In this document: piece after piece, positions 442-30,433 of the stretch
Layout: each line of letters starts with the position of its first letter
Numbering within the stretch: the first letter of the stretch is position 1
From: a virus
Length of the DNA stretch: 30,878 nt
Strand: one strand, 5' to 3'
IMG/VR virus record: IMGVR_UViG_3300041411_000274
Coordinates: 1-30,878 of that record
Notes under the pieces: model-generated
What the model was told of the DNA's origin: nothing
Databases searched by the model: none
What the model saw: the letters and a program-made list of their open reading frames with translations, nothing else
Translations under genes and position numbers: made by a program

Positions 442-987
442 TCATAATGAGATTCGATGAGCAATCCAGCCATAGAAAAACTGCTCCTGACTTGGATTGC
501 GCTCACAGATTTCAATATAACGCTGGCCTTGCATGATATTTAGTACACGCACTAGAACTTTTTCACCATCTTTCCCACGTTTAGCCAAATAGATTTTTAA
601 AGCACCCAACGTAGCTAAACCATAAATTCCATCCACTACAAGATATGACCAACCTGCCTTGCCTTGGTTATTCAGCAAATTTAAGGCACGCTGTAATAGG
701 GGTTTTGCAAATCCTGTACCACAATTCACGCATGTATCTAAAAGCTCTTCTGCAACCGCAGAACTCAAGGTATTAACTTCGTCAAACCGCGGAGCTATCC
801 AGTACTGCTTTTTATAAATGGCTCTGGCCACTTCAAGTGTTAAATCTCGCATATTGCCTTTAAAACCGTTTACTCGAGCAACTGCTTCAGTAATTCCGTA
901 CTTTGTTGCGCCTCCTCGATCCGCTGGATTATTCACATAGCCGCCTTCGCGCTTAATCAATTCATCTAGATACTGTTCGATGTTCAT
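442..987 (-). CDS. GH108-type phage endolysin (N-acetylmuramidase)
   Basis: A 181-residue muralytic enzyme that cuts peptidoglycan to release particles. The N-terminus carries the glycoside hydrolase 108 signature EGGYVNNPADRGGATKYGIT, with the likely catalytic Glu14. The C-terminal half fits the peptidoglycan-binding domain (PG_binding_3 type) usually paired with GH108. There is no signal peptide, so it needs the holin encoded just upstream. The start has a good ribosome site (AAGGAAAG). It is the last gene of the minus-strand late operon, after the two holin-like genes. No Rz/Rz1 spanin pair is recognisable nearby. Length and motif are normal and the gene looks functional. Confidence 0.93.
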   Translation of the reverse strand: MNIEQYLDELIKREGGYVNNPADRGGATKYGITEAVARVNGFKGNMRDLTLEVARAIYKKQYWIAPRFDEVNTLSSAVAEELLDTCVNCGTGFAKPLLQRALNLLNNQGKAGWSYLVVDGIYGLATLGALKIYLAKRGKDGEKVLVRVLNIMQGQRYIEICERNPSQEQFFYGWIAHRISL

Positions 988-1042
988 TTCGCTTTCCTTT
1001 AAATATAAAAAGCCACCAGTGGAGACTATAAAGATTTATTGA

Positions 1043-1264
1043 TTACTGTTGATTGGTTTCTTCATTTTCTTTTTTCTGTTTATTAGTAGATCCAAAGTAG
1101 AACGCAATCACAGCGCTAGATAAACCAAGTAAGGTCCCTAGCGACACGTTTAATAAGTCACGGTTTTTGTCTGGATATTCAATAAAGAACAAACCAAGAA
1201 CACAGAGAAATGACATTGCTATAACCATGTACGCTAAATATGTCCGAGTATTTTCACTTTTCAT
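1043..1264 (-). CDS. Small two-TM membrane protein, probable antiholin or second holin
   Basis: A 73-residue protein starting MKSENTRTYLAY. It has two predicted membrane helices (about residues 8-27 and 40-58) and a charged, Lys/Glu-rich tail. This start was preferred over an upstream in-frame ATG because GAGG lies 7 nt before it and it overlaps the stop of the preceding holin gene by a few bases, which indicates translational coupling. Lying between a holin-like gene and the endolysin, it is probably a holin partner. The assignment rests on topology and position, not on a recognised family. Confidence 0.7.
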   Translation of the reverse strand: MKSENTRTYLAYMVIAMSFLCVLGLFFIEYPDKNRDLLNVSLGTLLGLSSAVIAFYFGSTNKQKKENEETNQQ

Positions 1265-1538
1265 CTTTATCCTCTTTGATGCGTTGTTTGGCTTGCTCAT
1301 ACTGTTTTTTACGCAATTCATGAATCTCTTCTGAACGCTTTTCATCACGGCGCTTAAAGTAGAGATTCGTTGAATAGGTTGCTACACCTATTAAGATTGA
1401 AATAATTACAGCCCAATCAATTTTTCCGGCAATTCCAATCAACCCCCCTCCTACGACATAGCCATATGAAAATTTAGTTGCCGTGGCTGCAGCTGTACTC
1501 GCTGCAGCTTCAACTACACTATTTGTTTGATCGCTCAT
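1254..1538 (-). CDS. Probable holin
   Basis: A 94-residue protein starting MSDQTNSVVEAAAS. The N-terminal half is Ala/Gly-rich with two weakly to strongly hydrophobic stretches (about residues 25-40 and 43-60), followed by a highly charged cytoplasmic tail rich in Lys, Arg and Glu. This is the usual build of phage holins. The ATG at 1538 is preceded by AGGAGG. An upstream ATG at 1565 would add nine residues and start inside a hairpin, so it is less likely. It is the first gene of the lysis cassette, overlaps the next gene, and lies 123 bp after the 242-residue tail-tip gene. Confidence 0.8.
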   Translation of the reverse strand: MSDQTNSVVEAAASTAAATATKFSYGYVVGGGLIGIAGKIDWAVIISILIGVATYSTNLYFKRRDEKRSEEIHELRKKQYEQAKQRIKEDKDEK

Positions 1539-1564
1539 ACATGCCTTCCTCCTGATTTTGGGCA

Positions 1565-1587
1565 TAAAAAAACACCCTGATGGGTGC
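1565..1587 (-). terminator. Terminator-like hairpin upstream of holin
   Basis: On the minus strand CACCC and GGGTG pair around a 4-nt loop and are followed by seven T. It separates the tail-tip genes from the lysis cassette, 27 nt before the holin start. Confidence 0.75.
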
Positions 1588-1660
1588 TGTAATAAAAAAC
1601 TGTAAATTAGGAGTTACTTAATATTTCCAATTAAGGTGTCTTACATTTATCTCGCCTATG

Positions 1661-2389
1661 CTAAAAATTAGTAACATCAATAGCCATACCTGCAGAGAAA
1701 GGATCGCCAACTGATGCTGTTTGGGTAGTGCCTGATGTACTTGCAACACTAATCCATCTGTAATCTAAATTTAATGTACCTCCAGCTTCATCTATATAAA
1801 AACCTGCAATAGCATAGTTTAAAGACTGCCGACCGTTGTACCATTCTTTAGCTTGGTAACCAAGTTGACTAATTACAATAGCTAATTTCTTACCTATAGC
1901 ACCACCCCTTAAAGGCGCAGAATACGTTTCTGCAGGATGACGTAAAGGTAAGTTATGCGGAGACCCGTTAGCCCTTTGAATATAGGCTACTGGTTTAATT
2001 GTAGGGTAGTTAGAATTAAAAATAACTTTACTATTAGCATCGTAAATTTCTAAACCGTATTTAAATAGATCTACATCAGCAGGGAAATCACTTACAGACA
2101 TGAACTCATAAACAGTGAATGTACCAATTGTAGGCCAATGGTTTGTAGACATACATTCAATAGAATATTTACGAATATCACCTATAGGTAAGTTATCAAC
2201 TAAATCGAATCTTAATCGGTTATTTTTATAGTCATCTAGACGTACAGCAATTAAAGATTTAGAAGAACCACATACATACTCTAATTTATCTGTAGTATAT
2301 GTAGTCTTCTTATATAAAGTAATTGCAGGGGATTCCCCATCAATCTGTAAATCACCATTAGGTGTTTTAACTAATATTCCGGCAGGCAT
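1661..2389 (-). CDS. Tail-tip associated protein of unknown function (242 aa)
   Basis: A 242-residue protein starting MPAGILVKTPNGD, with no signal peptide or membrane segment. The middle (about residues 108-120, KYGLEIYDANSKV) resembles the short beta-rich motif of small phage tail-tip accessory proteins of the DUF6453 kind. The same type of motif (GLQVFNENAEL) occurs in its upstream neighbour, which suggests the two belong to one superfamily. It follows that neighbour by 2 bp and precedes the holin. It probably decorates the tip next to J or acts as a chaperone for it. The function is inferred from position and motif only. Confidence 0.7.
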   Translation of the reverse strand: MPAGILVKTPNGDLQIDGESPAITLYKKTTYTTDKLEYVCGSSKSLIAVRLDDYKNNRLRFDLVDNLPIGDIRKYSIECMSTNHWPTIGTFTVYEFMSVSDFPADVDLFKYGLEIYDANSKVIFNSNYPTIKPVAYIQRANGSPHNLPLRHPAETYSAPLRGGAIGKKLAIVISQLGYQAKEWYNGRQSLNYAIAGFYIDEAGGTLNLDYRWISVASTSGTTQTASVGDPFSAGMAIDVTNF

Positions 2390-2391
2390 AA

Positions 2392-2856
2392 TTAATAAAT
2401 CCCATAATAAACACGAATCTTAGAATCATCCCAACCATACCCTGTAACAGAGATGGTTATCGTATCCCCTTCAATTTTACTGATCCAAATAAAATATTTA
2501 TTCCATCTGAAAGTGGCCCTACCCCTACTGTCAGTATATCCGTTATCATATTCACGAGTTGTCCATGTCTGATAACCACAGAAAGAATTTTCATTACTAA
2601 AAATAAAAGGAGTACCCCCTAAAAATTTAGGATCCTGAATTACATATTCGTCTGTCACCCTTTCCTTTCGATCAACATCGATATACCCCATAATTTTTCC
2701 TAGGGTATCAGTAACATCTAAAATCAGTTCAGCGTTTTCATTAAATACCTGTAAACCTTGCGCCACTTTTGCCTCCTTGGACTTGCGCTTCTTGCGAAGC
2801 ACAAGCCAACTTACCAATAGTATTCCTACTATAATTAAACCAATAATTAATCCCAT
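2392..2856 (-). CDS. Tail-tip accessory protein with optional N-terminal membrane anchor (dual start)
   Basis: The long reading has 154 residues: a membrane helix (about 3-20), a basic stop-transfer segment (KKRKSKEAK) and a soluble domain beginning VAQGLQVFNENAEL, typical of the start of small tail-tip proteins. Codon 31 is a GTG at 2766-2764, preceded with 5-nt spacing by a perfect AAGGAGG (2772-2778). The 124-residue short form is therefore probably the main product. The long-form ATG at 2856 lies inside the last codons of J and has only a weak AGGT-like site. Either the gene makes an anchored and a soluble form, or the anchor is a separate short peptide that has become in-frame. Function unknown. 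Confidence 0.75.
   Translation of the reverse strand: MGLIIGLIIVGILLVSWLVLRKKRKSKEAKVAQGLQVFNENAELILDVTDTLGKIMGYIDVDRKERVTDEYVIQDPKFLGGTPFIFSNENSFCGYQTWTTREYDNGYTDSRGRATFRWNKYFIWISKIEGDTITISVTGYGWDDSKIRVYYGIY
2772..2778 (-). promoter_or_regulatory. Strong internal ribosome site deciding the short start at 2766
   Basis: The minus strand reads AAGGAGG, then 5 nt, then GTG. It is the best Shine-Dalgarno match in this part of the operon and lies within the longer open frame. Confidence 0.75.
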
Positions 2857-5800
2857 AGACCTAACCTAACTCGCATAACGTTATTGTCGTCGTACACTTC
2901 TAATAAACTACCTGTAAGAACCATACGTGCACCATTAGGCTTTGTTGGATCCTTGTGTGTGGTTAAGGTTCCAAGCGTTGCGGTAATAGCGCTTAGACTT
3001 GATGCATTGATCTTGTCGGCATTGATGTAACCAATGGATGCATTGTCTAAATACAGACCAGCGGGAATAACTGTGCCATTTGGCAAAGTTGTCGGCGTTG
3101 ATTGATAAGTAAATGCATATTTCGGAGTTACTGTACCAGTGACAGTTGACGGTGCGCCGATTGCAAATCTGTTTGCCTGAACAATGAAATCAACTGTCTT
3201 GCTGTCATTCTCAATACCAACGCCACCGACCAAATTGCCTGATTGCAATTTCAAAGTTGCTCTTGCAGTTAAGCCATCAATCGATTGCTGCTGAGATTGA
3301 ATTGAGGCCGTATGTCCGCCTACAGTTGTTGTTAAGTTTGTAAGACTGGTAGCTTGTGTTGAAACCTTTCCGTCAATGGTCGTTACTTTGGCATCTAAAG
3401 AAGATAGAGCTGAAGCTTCTGCTTTGTTTGCAAGTCCGTCACTCAAAGTTTTGATGTCTTGCGACCATGTGCCCCAAGTGCTTGTGCTTGCACTGCGGCG
3501 TTCCGCTGTAAGCTTAGAGTCGGTACCACGTGCAATCTGAATGATTGGCCCACCGGTGGCATCACTGTAATAAACGTAAGTTTCTAATGAGACATAGGTT
3601 CCCATTCCAGTTAAGCCAAGCGTTGATGCTTGCTTAAACTCACGCACAATACGCTTAGGGTAATTTGTCCAGTACCAAGATGGAGGTTGGTTAGTAGAAC
3701 GAGTGTCGGTAACCTCAACATCTTTTAACAATCCGTTAACCGAACTATTTAATGACGTAATACTAGACCCTTGAGAGGTAATATTGCCTTCAGTTACTGT
3801 CACACGGTTAGCTAGGTTTGTTAAAGCCGTACTATCCGCTTTACTTGTTAATGTGCCATTAATACTAGTAATGCTGTTGTTCAGTTGAGTGATCGAGTTG
3901 CCTTGGCTAGTAATCGTTCCCTCAGCCGTGCTCACGCGGGTAGTAAGCGACGATAAGGCATTGGCTGTAACATCATTGGCAGCAATGGCATCAGCGTCCT
4001 CAATGATGAGGTAATCAAGCTCCGTCATGCCCGCTGCATTTGAATAGTTACCAAGGAATTGAACGCTTAAGAATGCAGTGGCATTTGGCATTTGACGAGG
4101 CGCTGCTAAAGTCCAACTTCCTGTCGCGGCACCGGCAGCTCGTCCTTTAACGTACACCGTAACTTCTTGCCAGACGTTGTTTGCAGGGCTTTGATTGATC
4201 ACAAAGTAATTTGAAGAACCAAAGTCAGTAGACACGGTGTTGCTTGAGTTAACATGTGAAGTGCCATCTGCCGCCAAGGTGCAAACTGCACAGTAGACTG
4301 TTCCTGTACCACTGAGACGGCGATAGCGAGCGCGGATGCGATAAGTCTTTGTTTGATCAAATGGCAGTTTTGCTTTTGATCTTGCATTTACGTGGTCGTT
4401 ACCCGCGTTGTTACCAAAACGATAGACTTTGCCACCAAGCGCAGAGGTGTCGTCGGCTCTTGCGACTTCGCCATTTTTGGTCCAGTAAATCCACTCTGAA
4501 TCAGGATCTACATCAAGTGATGCAGACATGGTGATGCCATTGGCTACGTTTTTAAGATTCGCTGTAAGGCTAGTGATTGAGGATGTATTTGCTGTGATCT
4601 TGCCTTCGGCTGTAGTTACACGGCTGTCAAGATCAGTAACGGCTGAAGTGCTCGCTTTGGTATTTAAAGCACCGTTAATGCTTGTGATACTGTTGTTTAG
4701 CGATGTAATAGAATTACTGTGAGAAGTAATCGTATTACCCTGTTGAGTCACAGTATTCGTCAAGTTCGAAATAGCTGAAGCATTGGCGGTAATCTCGGTA
4801 GAAACATCTAACAAAGATGGCTCTACAATCGCTGAAATGCCGCTTGATGCAAGATCGGCTTCTGCAACTAAACTTGCTGACCAACCATTAATCCAATCAT
4901 CTGGCGGAGTTGTATAGCCGATTTCCGCATCAATATTAAACTTAGGATACTGCCAGTAAGCGTTAGGCGCTTGAGAAGTTAAGATGACAACTACTGTGCC
5001 GTTACGAACGCCTAAACGTACACGGGTTGGTAGCGTACCTGAGTTCACCACCCCGTGTTGAATAATTGAAGTACCAGTGTAAGCATAACCTCCAATATTC
5101 AAATTAATATCGGTCTTGCCAGCCAAATAGTTATAACCAGTAAGCGCCAATCTAAACATCTTACTTGTGAAGGTAATAGGCGTTTGAATTACGATGTTAC
5201 CAACGACATTTGCCCCGTTTTGTTGGAAAACCAACACACCTCTAAATAACTTAGCTGCACCGGTACCACCTTGAATCTTAGGCAATGCAGCGTTTGCTGT
5301 ATTGGTAGTAACCGCTAGATTATTAGTCAAGGAAGTAATCGAGCTACCTTGAGAGCTAATATTGCCTTCCGCTGTAGTAACTCGATTTGACAATGAGGTC
5401 AGAGCGGATGCGTCTGCTTTCTGAGAAAGCGCGGTATTAATATTGGTAACACTGTTGTTAAGAGTGACAATGTTGTTAGATGCCGAAGTTACGCGTCCAT
5501 CAATGTTTGTAACTTTAGAATCAAGCGTGCTCAAAGCAGACGATGTTGCTTGTAAGTCACTAGCTAATTTTTTATTGCCTGTGATGTTGCGAAATTGAAT
5601 GTTCGTTACGTGCCATAGTTGAGCCGCTGCCTCTGCCGCCGCAATGCTTACCTGAATCCACGGACGAATTTCAACCATTCCATTTGGTACAGTGAAATAC
5701 CCCTCGACCATGCCCCACGCATTTTTATCAGTCGATTTAACGGCCACTGTGTACCAAGACCACGTTCCCGCACTATTCCTCACACTAAAACCAATTACAG

Positions 5801-8800
5801 CCGAAGCTGTCGCTGAAGTATTTGGCGTAGCGAGCCATGCTGAGGCATAGAACATATCGCCAGCATTACATTTAACAAATGGGCCATAATACGTATCGCG
5901 GCTGTTTAGTTTTAATGCTTTTGGAGAAGGTGGATTAGGTGCCGCATCAGTCGCATCAACAATTGCACCAGCCGTCCAGCCATTCTTTGGATCGACAAAG
6001 TCAGGATTGAGAATCAGGTTCGATAAATCATTATTAGCAAGCGTGTTATTCAAGCTAGTAATCGAATTACCTTGACTTGTAATGTTGCCTTCCGCCGCTG
6101 TCACTCGGTTAGAAAGAGTGTTTACAGCCGAAGCGTCCGCTTTATTGGTAAGCGTTCCGTTGATAGAAGTAACACTATTTTTCAAGCTAGTAATGTCAGT
6201 ACCTTGACTTGTAATAGTGCTACCTTGTTGATTAACAGTAGACGTTAAAGAAGTAAGAGCGGCAGAGGTCGCAAAACTTCCATCAGCATCATCAGTCGTC
6301 AATACTGGTGAAACTTTGTAGCCTTGAACTTCCCACCAGCCGGCTGAACCTGTGTGACCAGGAGCAATACCAAAGAACAATTGAGGATTGGCGTCAGATG
6401 TATAAGTTAGGTTTGCAGTACGCTCAATTTTTGTCCATGTTTCATTCTTAGGAACTTCGGTTACAGGAATGCCAATGCTTGAATAGCCCGCAGTGGTGAA
6501 CTTACCATCATTGCCAGAGCGACCAATCGGGATCATCAGTAAGCCGTTAGAGTCAGCGCTACAACGAACCCAAAAACTTACTTTGTAAGTTCTATCGTTC
6601 GGCAAAGGTGTTCTTGCATAGTTAAAACAGTTCACTGGAACAGTTGTATCTTTGCGGAATACCGTATTGCTAACTTTGCCTGTCGTTGTCGTTTTGAAGT
6701 ACTGCGCCATTGGATAGCCGTAATGACTGATCCACTTCTCTGGGTTGGCAAGGCTGTAATCAGGAATTAATGAATCACTATCAAGTGAATTGATAGAATT
6801 TGTGAGAGAAGTAATTGAGTTACTTTGGTTTGTTAATCCACCTTCTGCCGCAGTCATTCTTGTAGAAAGACCACTTAGAGCAGAGTTAGTTGCCGAAATA
6901 CTTCCTTCTGCTGTGCTCATACGTGAGCCAAGCGACGTGATTGAATTTGTTGCTGTCGCTAAACGACCGTCCACTTCGGTAACTTTTGTATCTAAAGTTG
7001 TTAAAGCAGTTGCATTCGCTTGGTTGCCAGCAATGGCTTCCGCATCTTCAAGAATTAAGTAATCAAGTTCAACAATGCCCGCTTGGTTTTGATAATTCGC
7101 AAGGAACATTGGCGTAATAAAACCAGTCATTTGCGAAACTGTACGAGGACTAGCTTGTGTGCCTGCACCAGCAGCAGCTCCCGCTGAGCGTCCTTTGAAA
7201 TAGGCAACAACTTCTTGCCATTCATCGATCGCAGGTGCATGTGCACTGATTACATAGTTCGACGAACCCATAGTATTGGATTGAGTATTGCCCGTTGCCA
7301 CATACCAAGCTTTATCAGGCGTCTTTTGTGAAATGCCAACGTAGATTGTGCCAGTACCAGCACGGCGACGGTAACGCGCCCGAATACGATATGTTTTTGT
7401 TTGATCGAACGGCATGAGGTTATTCGCATGCAGCCAGATAGTGTCATTGCCAGCATTGTTACCGAGCTGAATTACTTTGCCACTTTGTCCTGTTGCTTCG
7501 GCAATAACGTTAAATTCGCCTGTAGCAGCGTAGGTTGTCCAATCGGTAATTGGGCTTCCTGCATTCATGCTAATTGTAGATGTAGCACTTGTTAAAGCAG
7601 AGTTAAGCGATGTAATTGCGTTTGCATTAGAAGTTACTTTGCCATCTACGGTCGTAACTTTTGTATCTAGTAGTTGAAGCGCCGATGCATCCGCTTTAGT
7701 TAATAAAGCACCTTCTGTCGAAGTCATTCGACTTTCTAGGCTTGTTACACGTCCAGCAGTTGCAGTATTTTGATTGGTTGCGGTATTGAATAAATCTGTC
7801 GCTTTTGCTTGAGTGGAAATAATCATCCCACTTGCGTCGGTACCGGCAATCCAAGTTGAAGGCGTTGTATTGGTTCCAACTTGGCGTTCTAACATCATTC
7901 TTTCAATATTGATGACTTGACCAGCGGCTTTTGCAGTTGGGTTGCCAATCAAAAGCATACAGATGGCTGCCCCACCAGCAGGCACTGTAAACACACCACT
8001 AAAACGAGTTAATGAGGCAGTAATACTAAAGCGTTGGCGGGTGCTGTCTGCGTTATAGAGCTGCCATTCAATTGGGTGTGGTGGTGTGCCCCCAACCGTT
8101 TTAGCAACAAAGCTGAAAATGTACTTGCCTTCAGTTAACCATTGGCGAGGCGTTTGTCCACCACCAATATTGAAATACGTTCCGCTGCCGCTTGCCGCAG
8201 GCATGGTGAATTGGAAAGCACGAACATTTGCTGTGTCTGGAGATGTAACAACCTCAAAAGGTAGGCCAGAAACCCAATTTGTAGGTTTTTCAACTGGGTT
8301 TGCGATTTCAGGACCTAAGAGATTCACACCCTGATTTGGCAAGCCATTAAAGTTGCTTTGTAAAGCAGTTAATGCCGATGTGTTTGAAGTAACTTTTCCG
8401 TCAATAGTCGTTACTTTTGAGTCGAGTGACTGTACCGCACTAGATTCTGCTTTGTTGGCAAGAGAGCCATTGATACTAGTGATGTTGTTGTTTAGCGATG
8501 TAATAGAACTACTGTGAGAAGTAATCGTATTGCCCTGCTGTGTCACTGTGTTTGTCAGATTAGTGATTGCAGTGGCATTAGCAGTTACATCAGGCAAATA
8601 GTCGTAAGAGCTAGGAATCCATGCATCCGTTGTGATTACATCGCCTTTGACCAGAACTGCCCAGTAAACCGTACCTACACTGTTTTTGTCGGCAGTCGGA
8701 CGGTTGATCATGTAAAAGTTAAGAACTTTGGCCGTGCCTGAACTATTTTTAGTAAACGTAAATTTATTTACGACTTTACCGCCAGAGTTTACAAGTGACG

Positions 8801-17741: not shown

Positions 17742-17765
17742 AAAAAAAGCCCCTTTTAAGGGGCT
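17742..17765 (-). terminator. Terminator-like hairpin between M and L
   Basis: AGCCCC and GGGGCT arms around a 6-nt loop, then seven T, ending 13 nt before the L start. Confidence 0.75.
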
Positions 17766-17781
17766 CATAAGTGAACAAGTA

Positions 17782-21500: not shown

Positions 21501-22144
21501 TCCATAATGTTGCCAGCTTTTTGTGCTGTTTCTCCCCATTTTTTAAATCCTGCACCACCATTTTCTAGTAGAGGAATTAATGCCGTCGAGCCAGAAATAA
21601 GGGTTTCCATATAAAACCGCATACTCTCCTGACTAACATTTGCTTTAACAAGAGAATCATAATAAAGCTGTAATGCATCTGGGCCTGAAAGTTTCTGGAA
21701 TTGAGAAATTGTTACCCCAACTTGAGGTGCAATGTTTTTAAAAAAATCAGCTAATGGACCACCCCCAGTCTGTTGGAAATTGCCGATATTTTGTTGCATA
21801 CCTTTTAACTGGTTTGCAAATTTATCCATGCTAATTCCTACAGTTTCTGCCCCTTTTGCGTAATACTGAAAGGACGAAGTACTTGTATTGGCTAGCTGAG
21901 CCAACTTTTTGATTTCACTACCAGTATCAATTACACGTGTTACGGTCGATGTGAGGCCGGCAACAATCTGATTATTCATAAAATCACTGACAGATTTCAT
22001 GGTAGAGCCAATTGTTTTAAAACTTTGAGCAATAGTTTCACTGGCTGATTTAGCTTTACGTTCTGCCTGGTTAATAGGCTCAACAAAATTACCAATATTA
22101 ACAACTAGGTCTATGCTTAGACTTCCTAAGTTAGTTGTAGCCAT
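18515..22144 (-). CDS. H: Tail tape measure protein with inserted phage-lysozyme domain
   Basis: A 1209-residue tape measure that sets tail length. The N-terminal part (MATTNLGSLSIDLVVNIGNF) and long helical stretches fit the family. Hydrophobic segments lie at about 265-350. At about 640-790 there is an inserted muralytic domain with AEVGREN (Glu656/Glu660) and NVGIFSWQKDRATDL, resembling the phage tail lysozyme (Phage_lysozyme2) type. A C-terminal GFATGGQIRGLGNGLSDSIP segment is typical of tape measures. TGGAGA stands before the start. By lambda-like scaling the tail would be longer than that of lambda (H about 850). Confidence 0.95.
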   Translation of the reverse strand: MATTNLGSLSIDLVVNIGNFVEPINQAERKAKSASETIAQSFKTIGSTMKSVSDFMNNQIVAGLTSTVTRVIDTGSEIKKLAQLANTSTSSFQYYAKGAETVGISMDKFANQLKGMQQNIGNFQQTGGGPLADFFKNIAPQVGVTISQFQKLSGPDALQLYYDSLVKANVSQESMRFYMETLISGSTALIPLLENGGAGFKKWGETAQKAGNIMDDAMIKKLSQAKENLQIMDLKWQGLQATMVNGIMPVFIAVTSHMDTITAAAVGLGAALSVKLAVQAAMVAKEFAMWAIEGVRTVATFASVTAASLQTTTAMGVLRGAMAFLGGPVGLGLLAVQALAAGAAFLFMKNSNDEAAKSLNEQGVSIAEIIKKYQELDTASQRTQMRAEKKSLEELNEEYDKSKGTLISMAIAIGRLDGSTSEASRTASELAMKFKEGQLTTSQFASEINKLSGVSEKSKARIDEQAAASIKVGQEFTKQKEVINSLLKSTDEATKKQGNLNKEFYAAELASNRAKVGYEQYQKTFNTEYKDVKGRQALLDKYGKNYSSKEMDIIYEWGKRYNYDSAQMATPTAQKDFKASLDLLNLNKELKSQQEDKLKLEQRSTEEAKKQAELAKKQAMASAVMDPATKNMLSVYQAFMNTGVLNEKQAKYFTAEVGRENDFRSSKMFGSHKDHNNGLTNVGIFSWQKDRATDLMSLLSKKGLLDTSGNIKQTQEALNTQAKYAINELLGNKRFAKSKKALMKNADYKELANTLGHNFIVWDYDGNKINAQPHHKKRDNYYNKLNLLLGKNGDESFALEALKNVQNSDDEQYQASLTQAANEKALKSKYYTEPERILADSEDDKAEIIKTIPEGPERTRLLDLRQKEYDKAMESYIAAEDEKIKIQNQAIQSTKDRIDQMNQSSTETWARTTLTPDELKNWNFQNEFETKQTNLWDGYQNINESINSNENLSETDKYQMLEDAHQAYVDAKFAMDVEYDTKSRELQNNLNVENLNNYATMFGDMAGLAKAFGGEQSNTYRTLFAMQKGFSLASVILSSSEAIGKAWASAAFPYNIPAVAMAVAQTGVLKAAVSAVTPQGFATGGQIRGLGNGLSDSIPIWASNEEFMIKQSSAKKIGLDNLNYMNQTGELPQTESSQIIVPQLAELPSTGSAINAPVSVNVTVNSDGSSQVDSSGQYKLVGEVLGNTIRQVLLQELRQGRILYNAIRG

Positions 22145-22182: not shown

Positions 22183-22186
22183 AATG

Positions 22187-22214: not shown

Positions 22215-22269
22215 GTTACTGCTTTGCTAAATTGGGCATACTTTACAAATACTAGAGTTAATCAAGGCA

Positions 22270-23084
22270 ATGAAACAAAAATTATTACTGCTATCTTCTT
22301 TTTTTTAATTAACCATTCTTTTGCAATAACAGTAGATGATTTGGAAACAAAATCGATATTCCGTACATTTTACCCATCTATGTTTCATGCTATGTTTGAA
22401 AGTAAAGATGAAGAGGAAATTAAACTTCCCCATATTGGAATCGAAGAAAATAGCCAAGAATATTTAGCCATACTCCATCCCGCGGAAGTCTTTAAAAATA
22501 ACTCTAGTGAAGATAGATATTTAATTTTTGTTGAAAAACGTGAAATTGGTAAAGCAGTAAGTGAAATTGAAAACGGAAAACTTGTCGAAAAAAGTTCGAA
22601 CTTCTATGAGTTTAGTGAAGGTTGTCATGCCTGTGAAGGTAATGCTGACCTCATGATTTTTAAGAAAAATAATAAAGGTAATTTTGATTTAGTCTCTAAA
22701 AATATCAATTCATACACTCCACCAAGTCAATATGGAATTATTAATTTAAATATTGAAAATCTAGCTTCAAGAATTGTCAAAATAGGTAAAAATGATGTTG
22801 GCTTCTTCGACGACTCATATACCTATTCAAATGATGGCGGTTCAGATACTTTACTACATCTTATTAAATTAGGTGATGATGCTATTCAAGGATACAATAT
22901 TGATATTGTTGAAGGAAGTAATGAAGGCACTTACGGCCAAAACTCACCTTTAAATTATAGTTTTAAGGGGGAATATAGAATTAAAACGGATCAACCTGAT
23001 TTAAATAGTTATCCTATTGAAATTAAATTCAAAGGAGATATTTTAGACAAAAAACAGATAAATTTATTAAATATAATAAAATAA
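22270..23084 (+). CDS. Secreted cargo (moron) protein of unknown function, signal peptide broken by T8 tract
   Basis: The only plus-strand gene inside the tail operon. From the ATG at 22270 the frame reads MKQKLLLLSSFF and stops at 22306-22308 in a run of eight T (22299-22306). One extra T would continue as LINHSFA, then ITVDDL, giving a 271-residue protein with a classical signal peptide cut after SFA. The remainder is fully open to 23084, acidic, with a CHAC motif and no recognised domain. As read the gene is off, or depends on slippage. It is AT-rich and bounded by hairpins, as expected of inserted cargo. Possible roles include superinfection exclusion or immunity, but none can be assigned. 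Confidence 0.65.
22299..22306 (+). repeat. T8 homopolymer in the signal-peptide coding region
   Basis: Eight consecutive T. Nine would join the start codon at 22270 to the long open frame. It is a candidate slippage or phase-variation site, or simply a disabling deletion. Confidence 0.7.
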
Positions 23085-23197: not shown

Positions 23198-23826
23198 TTA
23201 AAGTGAAGTTTTCATTTTTTTCATACGTTCCTGCTCAAAAGTAAGCGGTGGTGGTTTGTCGAAGTGTGGTAAATAATCATAAATTTGAAGTCCCTTTACT
23301 CCCTTGGATGATGCAAACATGAGCTTCATTTCTGCCATCACTTCTTCTAAACGTAAACCTATGTTGAGACTACCTCTTTTTTGTCGGTAGGCTGCCCAGG
23401 TTCTAATTTCTTTGTGGGTGAAGGTTGTTTTGACTTCTTCAATTGATCTTGAGGTTGCGATTGCGATTTCAATGAGGAGTTCTTCTCTGTCGTCGATTTT
23501 AATGTCTGCTTTCCCATGACATTAATTTCAACAATTTTAACCCAAATGATATCAACTAATGCTTGGCTAAAGTGTAATCGTACTTCATCCTCAGTGAAAG
23601 TAGGAACACCATCTTCATCTGTAATACAACTTGCTAAAATACCTGCCAGAGCCTCTTTATTTTCTCCGTATGCTTTCATATTTGCTACAGCAGATTGATA
23701 GTTAAAAGGCTTAATATAGGTTGTAAACTCTGATTCTTCACCATTTACCAAAACTTGGACTGTTACTTGTTCTGGCTTACCAAGCAAAACGCCTGACTTG
23801 ATTTGATCCGCACTTAGTTTCTTCAT
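23198..23826 (-). CDS. GT: Tail assembly chaperone fusion G-T made by -1 frameshift
   Basis: Ribosomes slipping back one base at GGGAAAG (23509-23515) would join the first 106 residues of G to 103 residues in the -1 frame, beginning ADIKIDDREELL. This contains RTWAAYRQKRGSLNIG and YLPHFDKPPPLTFEQE, typical of the lambda T domain, and ends at a TAA at 23198-23200. The predicted product is 209 residues. In lambda, GT and G in a set ratio load the tape measure and recruit tail tube protein. The T frame has no start of its own and is fully open, which supports real use of the shift. Confidence 0.88.
23359..23826 (-). CDS. G: Tail assembly chaperone G (unshifted product)
   Basis: A 155-residue chaperone. 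Residues 1-106 form the tail assembly chaperone domain. The last 49 residues (Lys, Ser, Gln and Pro-rich) are low-complexity sequence read in frame 0 past the slippery site. It lies between the major tail protein and the tape measure, as in lambda. Little upstream sequence separates it from the hairpin at 23847-23871. Confidence 0.88.
   Translation of the reverse strand: MKKLSADQIKSGVLLGKPEQVTVQVLVNGEESEFTTYIKPFNYQSAVANMKAYGENKEALAGILASCITDEDGVPTFTEDEVRLHFSQALVDIIWVKIVEINVMGKQTLKSTTEKNSSLKSQSQPQDQLKKSKQPSPTKKLEPGQPTDKKEVVST
23509..23515 (-). other. Programmed -1 frameshift site GGGAAAG
   Basis: The minus strand reads ATG GGA AAG C in frame 0, giving the X-XXY-YYZ heptamer G GGA AAG, the same as the lambda G-T site. 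It lies at codons 104-106 of G, exactly where the T-like frame takes over. Confidence 0.85.
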
Positions 23827-23888: not shown

Positions 23889-24356
23889 TTAAACGGTTTT
23901 CAATGTATCGAAAGCTGGGGTTTGGCGCTTCATTGGAATAGTATGGTTTACCAATGAATCTTTATCGAAAATTGGTGGGCCTTTTCGTAATTGGGCTTGA
24001 AATTGTGTCCAAGAACGACCTTGTGGCACTGTAACAACATCGCCCTGTAAAGTAGGTGCAACCGTACCATCCGCCCATCCCACGAAAACATCAACTTTTG
24101 CTTTGTTTTGTGCCAAATTCAAAATCGTAACATGGGTTTCATTTTCAGGATCAGTATTGATTTTCAAACTACCTTCACCTGGTTTAACCAAACCATATTC
24201 TGAAGTTGAAGATTCACGTTCTTCCATACATGTTGTTTCAATTTCAGTAACACTATCATCGCCTACCGACAATTCAGTAATACATTCAATTTTAGTTAAT
24301 ACAGCTGGTGAACCATGTTTCACCCATGTTTCAGTACCTTGTGTTAATACGCCCAT
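23889..24356 (-). CDS. V: Major tail tube protein (lambda V position)
   Basis: A 155-residue protein forming the stacked rings of a flexible non-contractile tail. The sequence (MGVLTQGTETWVKHGS... ELSVGDDSVTEIETTCMEE) fits the phage tail tube families that pair with G/GT chaperones. It is the first recognisable tail gene. Upstream of it there are no tail-terminator (U), connector, capsid, portal or terminase genes. It starts 25 nt after a strong hairpin. The family call rests on sequence character plus position. Confidence 0.88.
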   Translation of the reverse strand: MGVLTQGTETWVKHGSPAVLTKIECITELSVGDDSVTEIETTCMEERESSTSEYGLVKPGEGSLKINTDPENETHVTILNLAQNKAKVDVFVGWADGTVAPTLQGDVVTVPQGRSWTQFQAQLRKGPPIFDKDSLVNHTIPMKRQTPAFDTLKTV

Positions 24357-24380: not shown

Positions 24381-24403
24381 AAAAAAACCTCGCTTTTGCG
24401 AGG
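24381..24403 (-). terminator. Terminator-like hairpin upstream of V
   Basis: CCTCGC and GCGAGG arms, 4-nt loop, then seven T on the minus strand, 25 nt before the V start. A TATAGT hexamer lies about 27 nt further upstream (24430-24435). Confidence 0.78.
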
Positions 24404-24490
24404 CAATAAAATTTTAGAATTTGTGAAATACTATATAGCTCTAATATATAAATTCTGTCTTAATTACCAACAGTTCTTTAATAAACTGTA

Positions 24491-24664
24491 TTAAAATTTA
24501 TTTATTAATTCACTTTGAAGCATTTTAATCATTAATTCTTTAGCATTTTTTTGAGAAGTTGCTTTCTTTTCAACATCCTCTACAATTTGATTAATTCTCT
24601 TATCATCTGATAATTTCTTTAATTTGTTTTGTAGATTAGTCAAACCACTCATATTTGCAGACAT
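24491..24664 (-). CDS. Small helical protein of unknown function (57 aa)
   Basis: A 57-residue protein starting MSANMSGLTNLQNKL, predicted to be almost wholly helical with a coiled-coil look. The ATG at 24664 has AGGTGA upstream; an earlier in-frame ATG lacks this. It lies where head-completion and connector genes would normally be, but is too short to be recognised as one. Function unknown. Confidence 0.6.
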   Translation of the reverse strand: MSANMSGLTNLQNKLKKLSDDKRINQIVEDVEKKATSQKNAKELMIKMLQSELINKF

Positions 24665-24733
24665 AAAATCACCTAAACAAGTAAAAATCACTACATTATC
24701 TATTGATAAAAAATAAAATCATTAAAAAACACG

Positions 24734-24961
24734 TTATTTAAAAATATTATTTTGATGAGATTTACTACGTGTACGCCTTGGCTTATCTTGATTGGTTAAT
24801 TTATTAGATTTTCTCAGTACATCTGAATTAATAACTTTAACTAAATTGAGCTTGAGTAAATCATCTGCATCTCTTTTTTCAATCTCAATAATCTCATTGG
24901 CTATATAAACAATTCGATTATGCATACATGTAGTTAAAAACTGGACTTTTATCTTTAACAT
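24734..24961 (-). CDS. Small basic phage protein of unknown function (75 aa)
   Basis: A 75-residue protein starting MLKIKVQFLTTCM. The first 45 residues look like a small beta-rich domain (HNRIVYIANEIIEIEKRDAD) of the type often found as a short ORF near phage head-tail genes. The tail is strongly basic (KPRRTRSKSHQ) and could bind nucleic acid. The chosen ATG has GGGA upstream. It may be a leftover of the missing head-tail region. Function not assignable. Confidence 0.6.
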   Translation of the reverse strand: MLKIKVQFLTTCMHNRIVYIANEIIEIEKRDADDLLKLNLVKVINSDVLRKSNKLTNQDKPRRTRSKSHQNNIFK

Positions 24962-24972
24962 ATTTTTTCCCA

Positions 24973-25005
24973 ATAAAAAAAGAGCTAGACTTTAAATCTA
25001 GCTCT
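24973..25005 (-). terminator. Terminator-like hairpin
   Basis: AGAGCTAGA pairs with TCTAGCTCT around a 7-nt loop, followed by seven T on the minus strand, 12 nt before the next start. Confidence 0.78.
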
Positions 25006-25555: not shown

Positions 25556-26116
25556 CTATAATTGTAACTCTTTGTAAGTATCTTTCCGATATTCACGGAT
25601 AGTATCCTCTGCTTCTGCAATAGCAGATTCAAGCGCAAGCTGCATCAACTTCTCATATGGCTTCCAAGTCATTCTATAAACATCTGCGGACATTTTATAA
25701 GCCGTAATACCTGCATAATAAAGTCTACCTTGAGCAGTAAAGTTTTTTTCAAGATCAGGATTTAGAGAAAAATCGATAACCATGCGAGCAATAAGCCATG
25801 CTAAATGGTGAATAGCAATATATTCAGGTTCTCTTTTTTTATCTTTTTCAGCCTCTTTTAACATAATTAAAGCTAAATGATTTCTTATAAACTTATAGTC
25901 CTCTTCTGATTTTCCATTATAAATAATTAATGAAGATACTGATTTAGCTAATTGAGTCTCCATTTTAGCAATTGCCCCTAACCTATCTTGATAATTAATA
26001 GCGTCCTTACTAGGGGTATGTCCAACTCTTGAAAAGTCCAATGATTGTGCTGTTAAGCCTCGGGATAACCATTGAAACTGAGTAAACTGATTCATAATAC
26101 TAATATCAATATTCAT
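25556..26116 (-). CDS. Unknown 186-residue protein in the late-regulator (Q) position
   Basis: A 186-residue, mostly helical soluble protein starting MNIDISIMNQFTQFQW, with Trp and Tyr-rich segments (GRLYYAGITAYKMS, YRMTWKPYEKLM). No domain is recognised and no Cys-based zinc site is present. It is the last gene of the early operon and overlaps the preceding membrane-protein gene by 11 bp. Immediately downstream are a promoter-like motif and terminators. That is where lambdoid phages encode antiterminator Q, so a late-gene activator or antiterminator is a reasonable hypothesis. This is inferred from position only. Confidence 0.75.
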   Translation of the reverse strand: MNIDISIMNQFTQFQWLSRGLTAQSLDFSRVGHTPSKDAINYQDRLGAIAKMETQLAKSVSSLIIYNGKSEEDYKFIRNHLALIMLKEAEKDKKREPEYIAIHHLAWLIARMVIDFSLNPDLEKNFTAQGRLYYAGITAYKMSADVYRMTWKPYEKLMQLALESAIAEAEDTIREYRKDTYKELQL

Positions 26117-26548: not shown

Positions 26549-27023
26549 TATTCACCCCTAAAGCTTCTAGCGACTGTTTTAAAATATTCCAATCAAGTAA
26601 TGAGGCTTCTGATCGTCCATAATAAATCCGACGAAGCTGATGGGCTGTTAATGCATAGCCAGAATTAGCTGCCAAGAAATCCCAAGATTGTCCGAACTTG
26701 TTAACAAATATTTTTAATAAAGCTTGTTGGTAATTTGGATACGCCGTCGTTTCTTTAATTAGTGAATGAGTCAATAAGATTTTTGATGTTACGCCATGTT
26801 CCATATAACTTCTGCTGTTATACTCATCTTTAGTAAACTTCCCCATGCCCTGTTTAATATAGGCTTGATTCTCAATATTGTTTTCAACTAAGGTAATCTG
26901 ATTACCTTGAGCTACCCATTCTGCTAATTGAATAGCTAGTTCATTACGCTGTTTAGACTTAAGAAAAACATTTGAATAACTCATTGAATAATCATGTTTA
27001 GTAAGCTCTGATTTAATGCTCAT
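26532..27023 (-). CDS. Early phage protein of unknown function, possible DNA-binding C-terminus (163 aa)
   Basis: A 163-residue protein starting MSIKSELTKHDYSMSYS. The start at 27023 overlaps the stop of the DnaC-like gene (ATGA), and a longer frame inside that gene was rejected. The C-terminal 50 residues (GYALTAHQLRRIYYGRSEASLLDWNILKQ is the region) look like a helical, possibly HTH-type, DNA-binding segment. The N-terminal part is unrecognised. It may assist replication or regulate early genes. Confidence 0.68.
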   Translation of the reverse strand: MSIKSELTKHDYSMSYSNVFLKSKQRNELAIQLAEWVAQGNQITLVENNIENQAYIKQGMGKFTKDEYNSRSYMEHGVTSKILLTHSLIKETTAYPNYQQALLKIFVNKFGQSWDFLAANSGYALTAHQLRRIYYGRSEASLLDWNILKQSLEALGVNNESSC

Positions 27024-27796
27024 AGTTCTGCTCCTAAACGGGTATCTGCCCATACACATTCAATTTGAGTTAATCCCCCATGTTGAAAACGTGACCATAG
27101 GCGATCACCTAAATCAGAGATCAAGCCATGAATAATTGTACCCATCCGATCCTTAGTATCATTAAGTGCAAAATTTGAAATAAGCATTGTTGCTTTATCT
27201 GCGTCATAACGCGCATATAAGACCTTATGAACTACTTCTTTACGTTTTTCGCGATCATGCAAGCCATACTCATCAATAATGAGTAAGTCATATTCCGTAT
27301 ACCGATAAATAGTATTTTTTTCACTATCTCCTTGACGATACCAAGCTCCCATGATGTCATTTGCTAACTCTTCACTGGTGATATAACGAGCCGTTTTGCC
27401 ATTTTTAAGTAATGTTCTAGCCGTCGCACATGCAAGATGTGTTTTACCTGTCCCAGTTTTCCCCACCATAACTAGATTAGTTACTTGTCCTTTCATAATT
27501 CGTTCGGCATAAGCGGCGCAACTATTAAAAGCAATAATTTGCCCTGGTAATTCACAGCGATAATTATGAAATCCAGAGTTTTTGTGACGTATAGGTAGCA
27601 TTCCACCTGCCAAATGATTTTCATAAATCATCTTTCTAACAGCTTTACTATGCTTGAGATTAGACTCAGTTACTTTATTGACAGCACATGTTGGGCAAAT
27701 TTCTAAACCTGCAATCTTGACCTTTTTCTCCAAATGAATAGGGCAAATATTTAACCCAGGTTCGAAAGAGTGATTAATCTTTGTCCTTACATTCAT
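27020..27796 (-). CDS. DnaC/IstB-like helicase-loader ATPase
   Basis: A 258-residue AAA+ protein. An N-terminal zinc-ribbon-like site is formed by Cys18, His21, Cys34 and Cys37 (CPIH and CPTC). Walker A is GKTGTGKTH at about 108-117, Walker B is LLIIDEYG at about 170-177, and a sensor-1-like SNF follows. Together with the upstream DnaT-like protein it would load the host DnaB helicase at the phage origin. The start overlaps the stop of that gene. Length and motifs are complete. Retention of a replication pair is odd for an element that apparently cannot package DNA. Confidence 0.9.
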   Translation of the reverse strand: MNVRTKINHSFEPGLNICPIHLEKKVKIAGLEICPTCAVNKVTESNLKHSKAVRKMIYENHLAGGMLPIRHKNSGFHNYRCELPGQIIAFNSCAAYAERIMKGQVTNLVMVGKTGTGKTHLACATARTLLKNGKTARYITSEELANDIMGAWYRQGDSEKNTIYRYTEYDLLIIDEYGLHDREKRKEVVHKVLYARYDADKATMLISNFALNDTKDRMGTIIHGLISDLGDRLWSRFQHGGLTQIECVWADTRLGAEL

Positions 27797-28692
27797 ACAA
27801 ATTTCCCTCCCAACTCCAGCGGCTTAATACTTTCGTCATATTCTGGTTGTTGGTATTCAAAAGCTTGATTTACACTTCCATGTATTCTTGAATTTAAATA
27901 AATTGACTTCGTTGATTTAGTTTTTGGAGCTTTTAACTTTTCAAACTTTTCAAATATCCATTGAGCAAACTTACTGTGTCTTTGACTATCAGTTAAATAC
28001 CGTGAAGTTTCATGGTGAGCATTGAAATTGCTCAAATGAAATTCAAAATCATCCATAGATAAGATTTCTTGCACTTGCTGAGAGTATTTAGTCTTTTTCA
28101 AATAAGTAGCGAGATGATTTAAATCTGGTCTCCAATCTTCTGATTTCATAACGTTCGTTAAAATTACTTGAGAGAGAGTTTTTTCCTGTTCCTGTTCTTG
28201 CTTCTGTTCTTGGCTTAAAAGGGCCTTATTAGGGACTTCTTTCTCTACATAGCTATTATTCTTTCCTTCACGTCGATGCGTCATACAAAAAGCTTCAACG
28301 TATTTATTATAAAAATTTTCTAAAAATGGATTTGATGGTAATGAGTCATAGTCTTTTTGAATACCTTTACAACGGTTGTCACTTTCTTTTAAAGACTCAG
28401 CAACCTGGAAACGAGCCATTTCATGTACCCAGACCATTTCTGAAACATTGTCATAACTACAGAAACCTACTTTACATGCCCATTGAAGCCCCTTCTCAGC
28501 TCCTTCTAAACCCAAACCAGTTTCATGAGCTATATATAAAAGAGGCATATAATAAAGACCAAGCATATTTGCATGCGGACTGGTGATTAAATACATAGCC
28601 ACGATAATGGACTCAGGACACTCTCGTAATTGCTTACCTGTTGTGCCAGTCCAAAAATGTGGAGAAACTTTTCCATAATCACGCATCAGCAT
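27793..28692 (-). CDS. Phage replication initiation protein with DnaT-like C-terminal domain
   Basis: A 299-residue protein. Residues 1-130 form an N-terminal domain (YGKVSPHFWTGTTGKQLREC) typical of phage primosome or replication initiators. A Gln/Glu-rich linker (about 160-172) follows. Residues 180-250 match the DnaT DNA-binding domain pattern (WRPD at its start, FAQWIFEKFE at its end). The start ATG at 28692 has GGAG 4 nt upstream; a second ATG two codons on is possible. It is coupled to the DnaC-like gene and to the 44-residue ORF before it. Role: primosome formation at the element's origin. Confidence 0.85.
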   Translation of the reverse strand: MLMRDYGKVSPHFWTGTTGKQLRECPESIIVAMYLITSPHANMLGLYYMPLLYIAHETGLGLEGAEKGLQWACKVGFCSYDNVSEMVWVHEMARFQVAESLKESDNRCKGIQKDYDSLPSNPFLENFYNKYVEAFCMTHRREGKNNSYVEKEVPNKALLSQEQKQEQEQEKTLSQVILTNVMKSEDWRPDLNHLATYLKKTKYSQQVQEILSMDDFEFHLSNFNAHHETSRYLTDSQRHSKFAQWIFEKFEKLKAPKTKSTKSIYLNSRIHGSVNQAFEYQQPEYDESIKPLELGGKFV

Positions 28693-29009: not shown

Positions 29010-29243
29010 TTAACTTGCGATTTTCTTTTCAAACTCTTTCAGTGTTGGGCAAAGTTGATACGCTTTAAAGCTCCCATTGGTTACACGTTCTGCCCGTAGA
29101 GCAATTTTTTCAGACATTTGACTTTTACCTGTTAACCATGCATTAACCGAAGGCTGCTTAATAGAAAGTGCTTGTGCCGTTTTTGTTTGACTCCCGAAAA
29201 AGCTCACTAGTTGCATGTAGATTACAGTGACATCTATATTCAT
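29010..29243 (-). CDS. Cro-like / YdaS-type transcriptional regulator
   Basis: A 77-residue protein starting MNIDVTVIYMQLVSFFGSQ. A helix-turn-helix spans about residues 18-40 (TKTAQALSIKQPSVNAWL), with the family continuation MSEKIALRAERVTNGSF, as in small Cro/YdaS repressors. It is transcribed leftwards, divergent from the S24 repressor. Its start codon abuts the first operator inverted repeat. It heads the early operon and likely shuts off the repressor after induction. The upstream TTG in frame is rejected in favour of this ATG. Confidence 0.85.
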   Translation of the reverse strand: MNIDVTVIYMQLVSFFGSQTKTAQALSIKQPSVNAWLTGKSQMSEKIALRAERVTNGSFKAYQLCPTLKEFEKKIAS

Positions 29244-29270
29244 AACTATCAAAACTCCATCTTGATAGTT
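29244..29270. promoter_or_regulatory. Operator inverted repeat next to the Cro-like start
   Basis: AACTATCAA (29244-29252), 9 nt, TTGATAGTT (29262-29270): perfect 9-bp arms. The half-site AACTAT is shared with the four other operators. Confidence 0.65.
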
Positions 29271-29299
29271 AATTTATAGTTTTAACTATCAAAAGTCAA
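29271..29299 (-). promoter_or_regulatory. Leftward early promoter (pR-like)
   Basis: Minus-strand TTGACT (29294-29299). The -10 is either TAAATT after 17 nt or TATAAA after 15 nt. An operator palindrome lies inside the spacer, as expected for repression. Confidence 0.55.
29276..29289. promoter_or_regulatory. Repressor operator palindrome
   Basis: ATAGTT-TT-AACTAT, perfect 6-bp arms, within the leftward early promoter. Confidence 0.7.
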
Positions 29300-29313
29300 T
29301 AGTTCAAGTTATT

Positions 29314-29340
29314 TTGATTCTTAATAGTTTTAACTATAAA
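29314..29340 (+). promoter_or_regulatory. Promoter of the repressor gene (pRM-like)
   Basis: TTGATT (29314-29319) followed by TATAAA after 15 nt or TAAACT after 17 nt. An operator palindrome lies in the spacer, which suggests autoregulation. Confidence 0.45.
29324..29337. promoter_or_regulatory. Repressor operator palindrome
   Basis: ATAGTT-TT-AACTAT, identical to the palindrome at 29276-29289, centred 48 bp away. Confidence 0.7.
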
Positions 29341-29370
29341 CTTAGACTCAACGATTTTAGGGTTAATATC

Positions 29371-30042
29371 ATGTCTGATTTAGCAACTCGTCTAAAAACG
29401 GCTCGATTAAAAGCAGGAAAGAGTCAACATGAAGTGGCTGAAGCGGTTGGTATTAAACAACCGACATATCAAGCCTTGGAAACAGGAAAAAGCTTAAAGT
29501 CCGCATTTCTTCCTTTAATTGCAAAATATCTAGGGGTAGATGCTTATTGGTTAACAACCGGAGATGCTGAAGATTCATTTAGTGAAGATGATTTGATTAA
29601 ACCAGTTGTAGCAAGTAAGGAAAATAATGAATACATATGGATAGAAGTAGTGGAAGCTAATTTTTCATGTGGAACAGGCGAATCTATTGAATTTCATTTT
29701 GATGCTATTAATGGAAAAATCCCTTTCCCCTCCTCATTTTTTAAAGAAAAACATGTAGCTCAAGACTGCATGCGTATTATTAAAGCTAAAGGTGATAGCA
29801 TGATGGATTATATAAAAGATGGGGATCTTGTAGGCATAGATATATCTCAAACACACATTATAGATGGTGAAATATATGCTGTATATTTTGCTGGTGAAGG
29901 CATGTTAAAACAGATCTTTAAAGAAGAAGATGGATCTTTAATTCTTCATAGTCTCAACGAAAAATTTAGAGATCGCCGTGTAACAGAAGAAAACGGTAAA
30001 AACTTTAGAGTGATGGGTCGCCAGTTCTGGAGAGCAGGATAA
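29371..30042 (+). CDS. LexA/CI-type S24 repressor, SOS-cleavable
   Basis: A 223-residue repressor starting MSDLATRLKTARLKAG. The HTH spans about residues 18-40 (QHEVAEAVGIKQPTYQALE). The C-terminal S24 domain has Ser143 in GDSM and Lys180, 37 residues apart as in LexA, with a Cys100-Gly101 bond at the expected autocleavage position (Cys-Gly replaces the usual Ala-Gly). DNA damage via RecA should therefore induce the element. AGGG stands before the ATG; an upstream in-frame ATG at 29314 lies within the promoter and is rejected. A strong terminator follows. Confidence 0.93.
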   Translation: MSDLATRLKTARLKAGKSQHEVAEAVGIKQPTYQALETGKSLKSAFLPLIAKYLGVDAYWLTTGDAEDSFSEDDLIKPVVASKENNEYIWIEVVEANFSCGTGESIEFHFDAINGKIPFPSSFFKEKHVAQDCMRIIKAKGDSMMDYIKDGDLVGIDISQTHIIDGEIYAVYFAGEGMLKQIFKEEDGSLILHSLNEKFRDRRVTEENGKNFRVMGRQFWRAG

Positions 30043-30070
30043 TAAAAAAATCATACATCTAGAATCTAAT

Positions 30071-30102
30071 AAAAAAGCCACATTTAATGTGGCTTTTTTA
30101 TT
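30071..30102 (+). terminator. Terminator of the repressor gene
   Basis: AAAAAAGCCACAT, 3-nt loop, ATGTGGCTTTTTT: a 13-bp stem with T tract. The palindrome can act on both strands. Confidence 0.9.
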
Positions 30103-30137
30103 AATGATAAAATTAAAAGTTAAAATTATTATTTTTA

Positions 30138-30151
30138 ATAGTTAAAACTAT
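30138..30151. promoter_or_regulatory. Repressor operator copy before the 60-residue membrane protein
   Basis: ATAGTT-AA-AACTAT, the same perfect arms as in the repressor region. It overlaps the first base of the -35 hexamer of the next promoter. Confidence 0.7.
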
Positions 30152-30179
30152 TGACTTACAATATAGATAAAACTATATT
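30151..30179 (+). promoter_or_regulatory. Operator-controlled promoter of the 60-residue membrane protein
   Basis: TTGACT (30151-30156), 17 nt, TATATT (30174-30179): one of the best sigma-70-type promoters in the window. It overlaps two operator palindromes 25 bp apart, so the gene should be silent until the repressor is cleaved. Confidence 0.7.
30163..30176. promoter_or_regulatory. Second repressor operator before the 60-residue membrane protein
   Basis: ATAGAT-AA-AACTAT, one mismatch in the left arm, overlapping the -10 hexamer. Confidence 0.6.
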
Positions 30180-30250
30180 CATCGTTTAAGCCTACTACTA
30201 ACACTAGAAACTAAACCTAACCAAAATGTCTATGAAAAAAAGGGGTAATT

Positions 30251-30433
30251 ATGAAAGATATATCTCGCAACTTGAATTCCCCAGCCCGGCCTAACCAAAG
30301 GCAAGCTTTATGGTTATCTAATTTTAAATCTAATATTTTAATCACACTTAAAATGTTAGCGTTCTTATCAGCAGGATTTATAGTTTGGCTCATCGCGGCT
30401 GTTATTGCGGTGAAACTTATTACGGCAACATAA
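30251..30433 (+). CDS. Small single-TM membrane protein under repressor control (60 aa)
   Basis: A 60-residue protein starting MKDISRNLNSPARPNQRQ. It has a hydrophilic, basic N-terminus of about 30 residues and one long membrane helix (about 33-57), and ends AVKLITAT. AGGGG stands 5 nt before the ATG. It is monocistronic, followed after about 100 nt by a terminator, and preceded by a good promoter overlapped by two copies of the repressor operator. It is therefore likely co-induced with the early genes. Candidate roles are membrane perturbation, exclusion or lysis support; no family recognised. The overlapping minus-strand frame lacks comparable start signals. Confidence 0.72.
   Translation: MKDISRNLNSPARPNQRQALWLSNFKSNILITLKMLAFLSAGFIVWLIAAVIAVKLITAT

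Follow-up and report, generated by a model that had tools for sequence, protein, structure and literature searches.

We analyzed a complete record of the IMG/VR database, IMGVR_UViG_3300041411_000274 (30,878 bases, hereafter the window), and conclude that the headless, prophage-derived element it carries is a stable and selectively maintained locus, probably an F-type tailocin. The element has a complete and intact set of tail genes and no head genes, shares a deletion scar and a fixed insertion site with related loci, is under purifying selection, and carries a variable cassette next to its central fiber gene. Under stress, the locus would most likely be induced to form flexible tail particles that, like F-type pyocins, kill related bacteria. 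A preliminary description of the window had proposed an F-type tailocin as a candidate, and the comparative tests support that reading through the shared architecture and scar and through purifying selection.

A tail cluster without a head

The window encodes every component of a noncontractile siphophage tail (V, G-T, H, M, L, K, I, and J), as recognized by Pfam and PHROG profiles. These matches, together with the GGGAAAG slip site and an open T frame, confirm the earlier claim of a lambda-type tail from V to J with an intact G-T frameshift. The slip site recurs in all eight headless records described below and also in full relatives.

23889..24356, minus strand: V, tail tube protein (Pfam Phage_TTP_11, 1.5e-40)
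23359..23826, minus strand: G, tail assembly chaperone (Pfam TAC_13, 3.5e-21)
23198..23515, minus strand: T, reached via a -1 frameshift at GGGAAAG (23515-23509), with 104 amino acids open in the -1 frame
18515..22144, minus strand: H, tape measure protein, 1,209 amino acids (PHROG, 1e-145)
17782..18123, minus strand: M, minor tail protein (Pfam profile match)
17010..17834, minus strand: L, minor tail protein/hub (Pfam, 8.6e-61)
16248..16997, minus strand: K, JAB and NlpC/P60 domains (Pfam and PHROG matches)
15279..15929, minus strand: I, tail tip assembly protein (Pfam and PHROG matches)
2847..15230, minus strand: J, central tail fiber/tip attachment protein, 4,127 amino acids (PHROG match)

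Profile searches of the window found no TerL, portal, or integrase, and the element likewise lacks the tail terminator and other connectors. The same searches detected TerL and portal in all four of the closest full prophages (G006, G187, G189, and G190, whose V proteins are 95% identical to that of the window) and an integrase in two of the four, which upholds the previously described absence of head, connector, and integrase genes. In these prophages the stretch from the homologues of 25060-25278 to V is exactly where the HNH, TerS, TerL, portal, protease, capsid, and connector genes lie, and all 21 V loci that we sampled in 19 further Acinetobacter genomes come with a portal gene and other head genes, so the search finds heads where they are present. 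Ten head and connector proteins used as tblastn queries, along with the Pfam TerL and portal profiles, found no match in the headless cluster and were found in the full relatives. Capsid, terminase, and integrase, the hallmarks of an intact temperate prophage, are therefore all absent from the window. Two open reading frames (ORFs) are remnants of the head/connector region.

24491..24691, minus strand: remnant resembling the start of an HK97-gp10-type connector gene (30-34% identity to gp10-type genes of full relatives)
24734..24973, minus strand: remnant similar to the small gene that follows the major capsid gene (49% identity to that gene in G190/G189)

When V was used to search viral contigs, seven further records with V 98-100% identical were returned, plus one fragment. 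In the eight headless records, the window included, the genes run repressor, Cro, DnaD, DnaC, small genes, V, G, an opposite-strand moron, H, M, L, K, I, J, and endolysin, and all eight lack head genes. The stretch from the last early genes to V is alignable end to end in all eight, which indicates a single deletion scar common to them. The same headless architecture, with one scar and one tRNA-Arg site, is thus present in several strains, and close relatives with heads at the same locus, which would have made the window a lone deletion, were not found. Three records (G004, G005, and G184) have an integrase just past the endolysin. G005 has a complete prophage, head genes included (26618-68247), between the headless locus and tRNA-Arg, which it reaches, and in G004 about 50 kb of prophage-like DNA on the tRNA side (1-51440) ends in an integrase; these integrases and prophages are neighbors of the headless loci and not parts of the cluster.

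The left end of the window is chromosomal DNA with a tRNA gene, and the right end is the start of a chromosomal gene.

57..133, plus strand: tRNA-Arg (CCG), left chromosomal flank (ARAGORN); an attachment site for other prophages

Comparison with empty sites among 176 Acinetobacter genomes places the left chromosome to about position 139 and the limits of the element at about 134/140 to about 30740; the headless element formerly delimited as 442-30433 stands, with these corrected limits. Both flanks matched well in 17 genomes, of which 12 have an empty site with the flanks 9-15 bases apart and 5 have 6.5 to 87 kb of other DNA at the site. No repeat of the tRNA end of at least 12 bases was found at the right end. 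Two other records (G182 and G183) likewise include both chromosomal flanks, and the site is identical in all headless records having flanks, so there is no sign of movement. The short flanks of the window match genomes G096 and G019 at 98-100%, and the 3.4-kb flank of G183 matches G072 at 95% and the G096/G019 group at 85-89%, indicating that the locus occupies one and the same site in two or more species-level host lineages. From the host names of phages that share J, we infer that the hosts fall within the A. calcoaceticus-baumannii group.

Selection and the variable cassette

We estimated omega (dN/dS) pairwise with NG86 across the eight headless records, with bootstrap limits for the window and G005, the most divergent headless lineages. 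The tail genes are strongly constrained, with omega of ∼0.02-0.03 for V, 0.06-0.12 for L, ∼0.07-0.075 for K, 0.13 for M, 0.09-0.12 for H within one allele class, and 0.06-0.16 for the first 950 codons of J. G has a higher value (∼0.2, with a bootstrap upper limit of 0.52); it overlaps T in another frame, which lowers its synonymous rate. The dN/dS of V, G, H, and J that had been proposed as a check is therefore purifying for all four (∼0.02-0.2, taking H within class and J at its N terminus). H occurs as two allele classes in the headless set, and a pooled value of 0.57 over all pairs was set aside as inflated by the alignment of these two unlike classes. Constraint extends to the endolysin (∼0.09-0.10), the S24 repressor (∼0.05-0.06), the DnaC-like (∼0.05) and DnaD-like (∼0.06-0.066) proteins, and the last early gene (0.03-0.05), and the bootstrap upper limit is below 0.25 for V, M, L, K, I, H, endolysin, S24, Cro, DnaC-like, DnaD-like, and the last early gene. 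The head-region remnants are relaxed, with omega of ∼0.5 (∼0.3-0.5 for 24734-24973, and 0.3-0.5 in a single pair), and a small ORF at 26321-26548 has a value of 0.89. The K-L-M-I genes are 89-99% identical among headless records and 65-72% identical to full phages, and the headless gene trees are mutually discordant, which points to exchange between headless loci.

Two genes located after the conserved J end and before the lysis genes depart from this pattern of conservation.

2392..2856, minus strand: hypervariable cassette gene 1, in eight of eight headless records (37-84% identity where aligned)
1661..2389, minus strand: hypervariable cassette gene 2, a candidate receptor-binding or fiber accessory protein (an ORF of this type in eight of eight headless records)

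The cassette is open in all eight records, and its second gene is 50-79% identical in records for which blastp gives a full-length alignment and falls below detection in others. The reading frame of J is also open throughout the set, at lengths of 2,871-4,579 amino acids, and its middle is mosaic. The cassette and the mosaic middle of J together form the pattern expected of a tailocin specificity module and may be involved in receptor binding. The J protein of the window is more than three times the length of lambda J. PHROG "minor head" matches within J were rejected as fiber repeats rather than head genes.

Lysis, control, and replication

Pfam and PHROG matches substantiate the holin/endolysin cassette noted earlier, and the early region encodes a repressor switch, two replication proteins, and a candidate activator.

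442..987, minus strand: endolysin with GH108 and peptidoglycan-binding domains (Pfam, 3e-24)
1043..1348, minus strand: holin-like, the second small membrane protein in the lysis cassette (phrog_9990), between holin and endolysin
1254..1565, minus strand: holin (Pfam Phage_holin_2_1, 4.9e-8; PHROG holin, 4e-26)
24387..24404, minus strand: intrinsic terminator just upstream of V (scan), conserved in eight of eight headless records
25556..26116, minus strand: last early gene, candidate late-gene activator from its position and omega (phrog_5656)
27020..27796, minus strand: DnaC-like helicase loader with intact Walker A and B motifs (PHROG, 1.2e-52)
27793..28692, minus strand: DnaD-like replication protein (PHROG)
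29010..29252, minus strand: Cro-like regulator (PHROG)
29276..29337: operator region with two perfect ATAGTTTTAACTAT sites, at 29276 and 29324 (motif scan)
29314..30042, plus strand: S24 self-cleaving repressor (Pfam Peptidase_S24, 6.7e-20; cleavage and catalytic residues)
30138..30176: second operator pair over a promoter-like site, TTGACT-17-TATATT (scan)
30251..30433, plus strand: small one-helix membrane protein of 60 amino acids, conserved in seven headless records

The cleavage and catalytic residues attributed to the S24 repressor were located as a Cys-Gly cleavage motif at 119, Ser 160 (GDSMM), and Lys 196 (GMLKQ). A third perfect copy of ATAGTTTTAACTAT lies at 30138, ahead of the gene for the small membrane protein, and the number of near-copies is above that in all shuffles; the repressor residues and operators would suit an SOS-type induction. 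The small membrane protein at 30251..30433 is probably under the control of the repressor, and in the full phage G189 a similar small membrane gene adjoins the repressor. Apart from the operators, no convincing repeats of an iteron-like replication origin were found in 26500-30750. The late operon (15240-25512, minus strand) contains ∼10 strong terminator-like hairpins at gene boundaries, which recur in G005 and one full relative. These hairpins suggest that late expression needs processive antitermination, for which the last early gene is a candidate factor; an AlphaFold model of its product had a pLDDT (predicted local distance difference test score) of 44 and hence was not used.

We propose that a lambda/HK97-type prophage was stripped of its head and connector genes, and of those for recombination and integration, by a single ancestral event or a series of them, and that the element was kept for its tail. 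DNA damage would activate RecA and lead the S24 repressor to cleave itself, allowing expression of the early operon with Cro, DnaD/DnaC, and the candidate activator at 25556-26116. Late transcription would then continue past the terminators to cover V-J and the lysis genes. Tails would be assembled on H with the G/GT chaperones, and the cell would lyse. The released particles would attach to related strains via J and the variable two-gene cassette, after which the target membrane would be depolarized.

Known tailocins and alternative explanations

Few F-type tailocins are known, namely, F-pyocin, the monocin of the Gram-positive Listeria monocytogenes, and rhizoviticin (PMC10811719), and we found no report of one from Acinetobacter in the literature searched. 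Among solved structures, the Pseudomonas F2-pyocin is the best match for five of the six tail proteins compared (J, V, L, M, and I), with bit scores that exceed those to lambda for J (826 versus 442), L (227 versus 91), M (64 versus 32), and I (128 versus 81), although this closeness may partly reflect related hosts; H had only a weak match, to another tape measure protein. The F-type pyocins of P. aeruginosa (F2-pyocin, PDB 25vf/25vd) are likewise lambda-derived flexible tail clusters that start at the tube protein. They differ in being controlled by PrtR/PrtN and in sharing their fixed site with the R-type cluster, and they are not known to have a replication module (in part from PMC12090994), whereas the element described here has its own CI/Cro switch.

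The nearest known system in design is rhizoviticin of Allorhizobium vitis, a proven F-type tailocin (PMC10811719). Both loci combine headless siphophage-type tails beside a tRNA gene with a LexA/S24-type repressor and lysis and replication genes, and no attachment (att) repeats were detected in either (PMC10811719). Rhizoviticin comes from another bacterial class and is a chimera of two prophages with an integrase remnant (PMC10811719), whereas the window has no integrase; its replication genes are DnaA- and DnaB-like (PMC10811719), and those of the window are DnaD- and DnaC-like. In gene order, the HK97-type prophages G189, G190, G006, and G187 have the same succession of loaders, last early gene, V, G, H, M, L, K, I, and J, but G189, unlike the window, has an integrase and a left early operon.

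The retained replication genes had earlier raised the doubt that the locus might be a degraded prophage. This doubt is answered in part by their omega of ∼0.05-0.06 and by rhizoviticin, which keeps and needs such genes: five-gene deletions showed that its replication genes are required for tail expression (PMC10811719). Strong constraint since the common headless ancestor favors retention for a function. The locus could conceivably be a self-amplifying tailocin, replicated in place without excision on induction so that the dose of tail genes is raised, but we consider this rather unlikely. In a milder form of the idea, the replication genes may be needed for late transcription, by analogy with the rhizoviticin deletions.

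Several points weigh against the tailocin interpretation. No immunity gene was identified at the locus, and the moron that was considered as a candidate is disrupted in about half of the records.

22224..23084, plus strand: exported moron in the slot between T and H, frameshifted in the window (signal peptide and record comparison)

This ORF, which is not a tail gene, has its signal peptide in frame in only four of the eight records (G003, G004, G181, and G182), and the window copy deviates in a poly-T tract as well as at its C-terminal end; the difference in poly-T length might reflect phase variation or decay. The moron was first considered as the immunity gene because the headless set has it and the closest full phages lack it, but it has a relative in the full prophage G010. 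With its signal peptide out of frame, an omega of ∼0.4-0.5, and chromosomal as well as G010 relatives, it was rejected as a strong immunity-gene claim, and because it is frameshifted in the window, it is a weak immunity candidate. Distant relatives of the moron occur in many Acinetobacter chromosomes. Further adverse points are that the endolysin of G005 (about 25780-26350) is split by a frameshift, the sole such record, and that the signal of purifying selection could come partly from genetic recombination between these loci and functional phages, even though the headless genes cluster by themselves at a clear distance from those of full phages. The headless sample consists of only eight records, all from IMG/VR, and the exact locus occurs in none of 176 species-representative Acinetobacter genomes, so its prevalence is probably patchy; H as a query against the genome contigs gave no locus, and alignment of V to the genomes gave distant loci only.

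The loss of head and integrase genes, together with the broken moron and G005 endolysin, could alternatively mark a dead remnant in early decay whose tail genes are intact by chance. Three allele groups at synonymous distances of ∼0.2-0.5 share the scar, which would not be expected of such a remnant, and neither would tail, repressor, and replication genes that stay open with omega well below 1 while head remnants of the same loci are relaxed. This reading is strongly disfavored, and we consider it quite improbable. Still less probable is a phage satellite that makes its own tails and takes heads, packaging, and integration from a helper, the reverse of capsid-forming phage-inducible chromosomal islands. 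The replication module, repressor, and lysis genes kept under selection would suit a satellite, as would the full prophages adjoining the headless locus at the same tRNA in G005, but the element has neither an integrase nor an att repeat of at least 12 bases, no terminase, small terminase subunit, or packaging adaptor was recognized, and the fixed site speaks against movement. Domestication for a non-killing role, such as lysis-driven release of DNA or vesicles with tails as a by-product, is just as improbable as a satellite, since lysis alone would explain the conserved lysis genes and repressor and has a precedent in Stenotrophomonas, where vesicles are reported to arise from DNA-damage lysis by a tailocin endolysin (PMC13393414), but would not account for purifying selection on V, K, L, M, H, and J or for the diversification of the cassette after J.

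A stable F-type tailocin, our preferred reading, would be of ecological and practical interest in a group of likely hosts that includes A. baumannii, as a naturally occurring particle with a narrow killing spectrum and a natural specificity module that is readily swapped. The early region of rhizoviticin was regarded by its authors as transitional, an early stage of domestication (PMC10811719). Constraint on the replication genes of the present locus is as strong as that on its tail genes, which suggests that replication genes in tailocins need not be leftovers of such an early stage.

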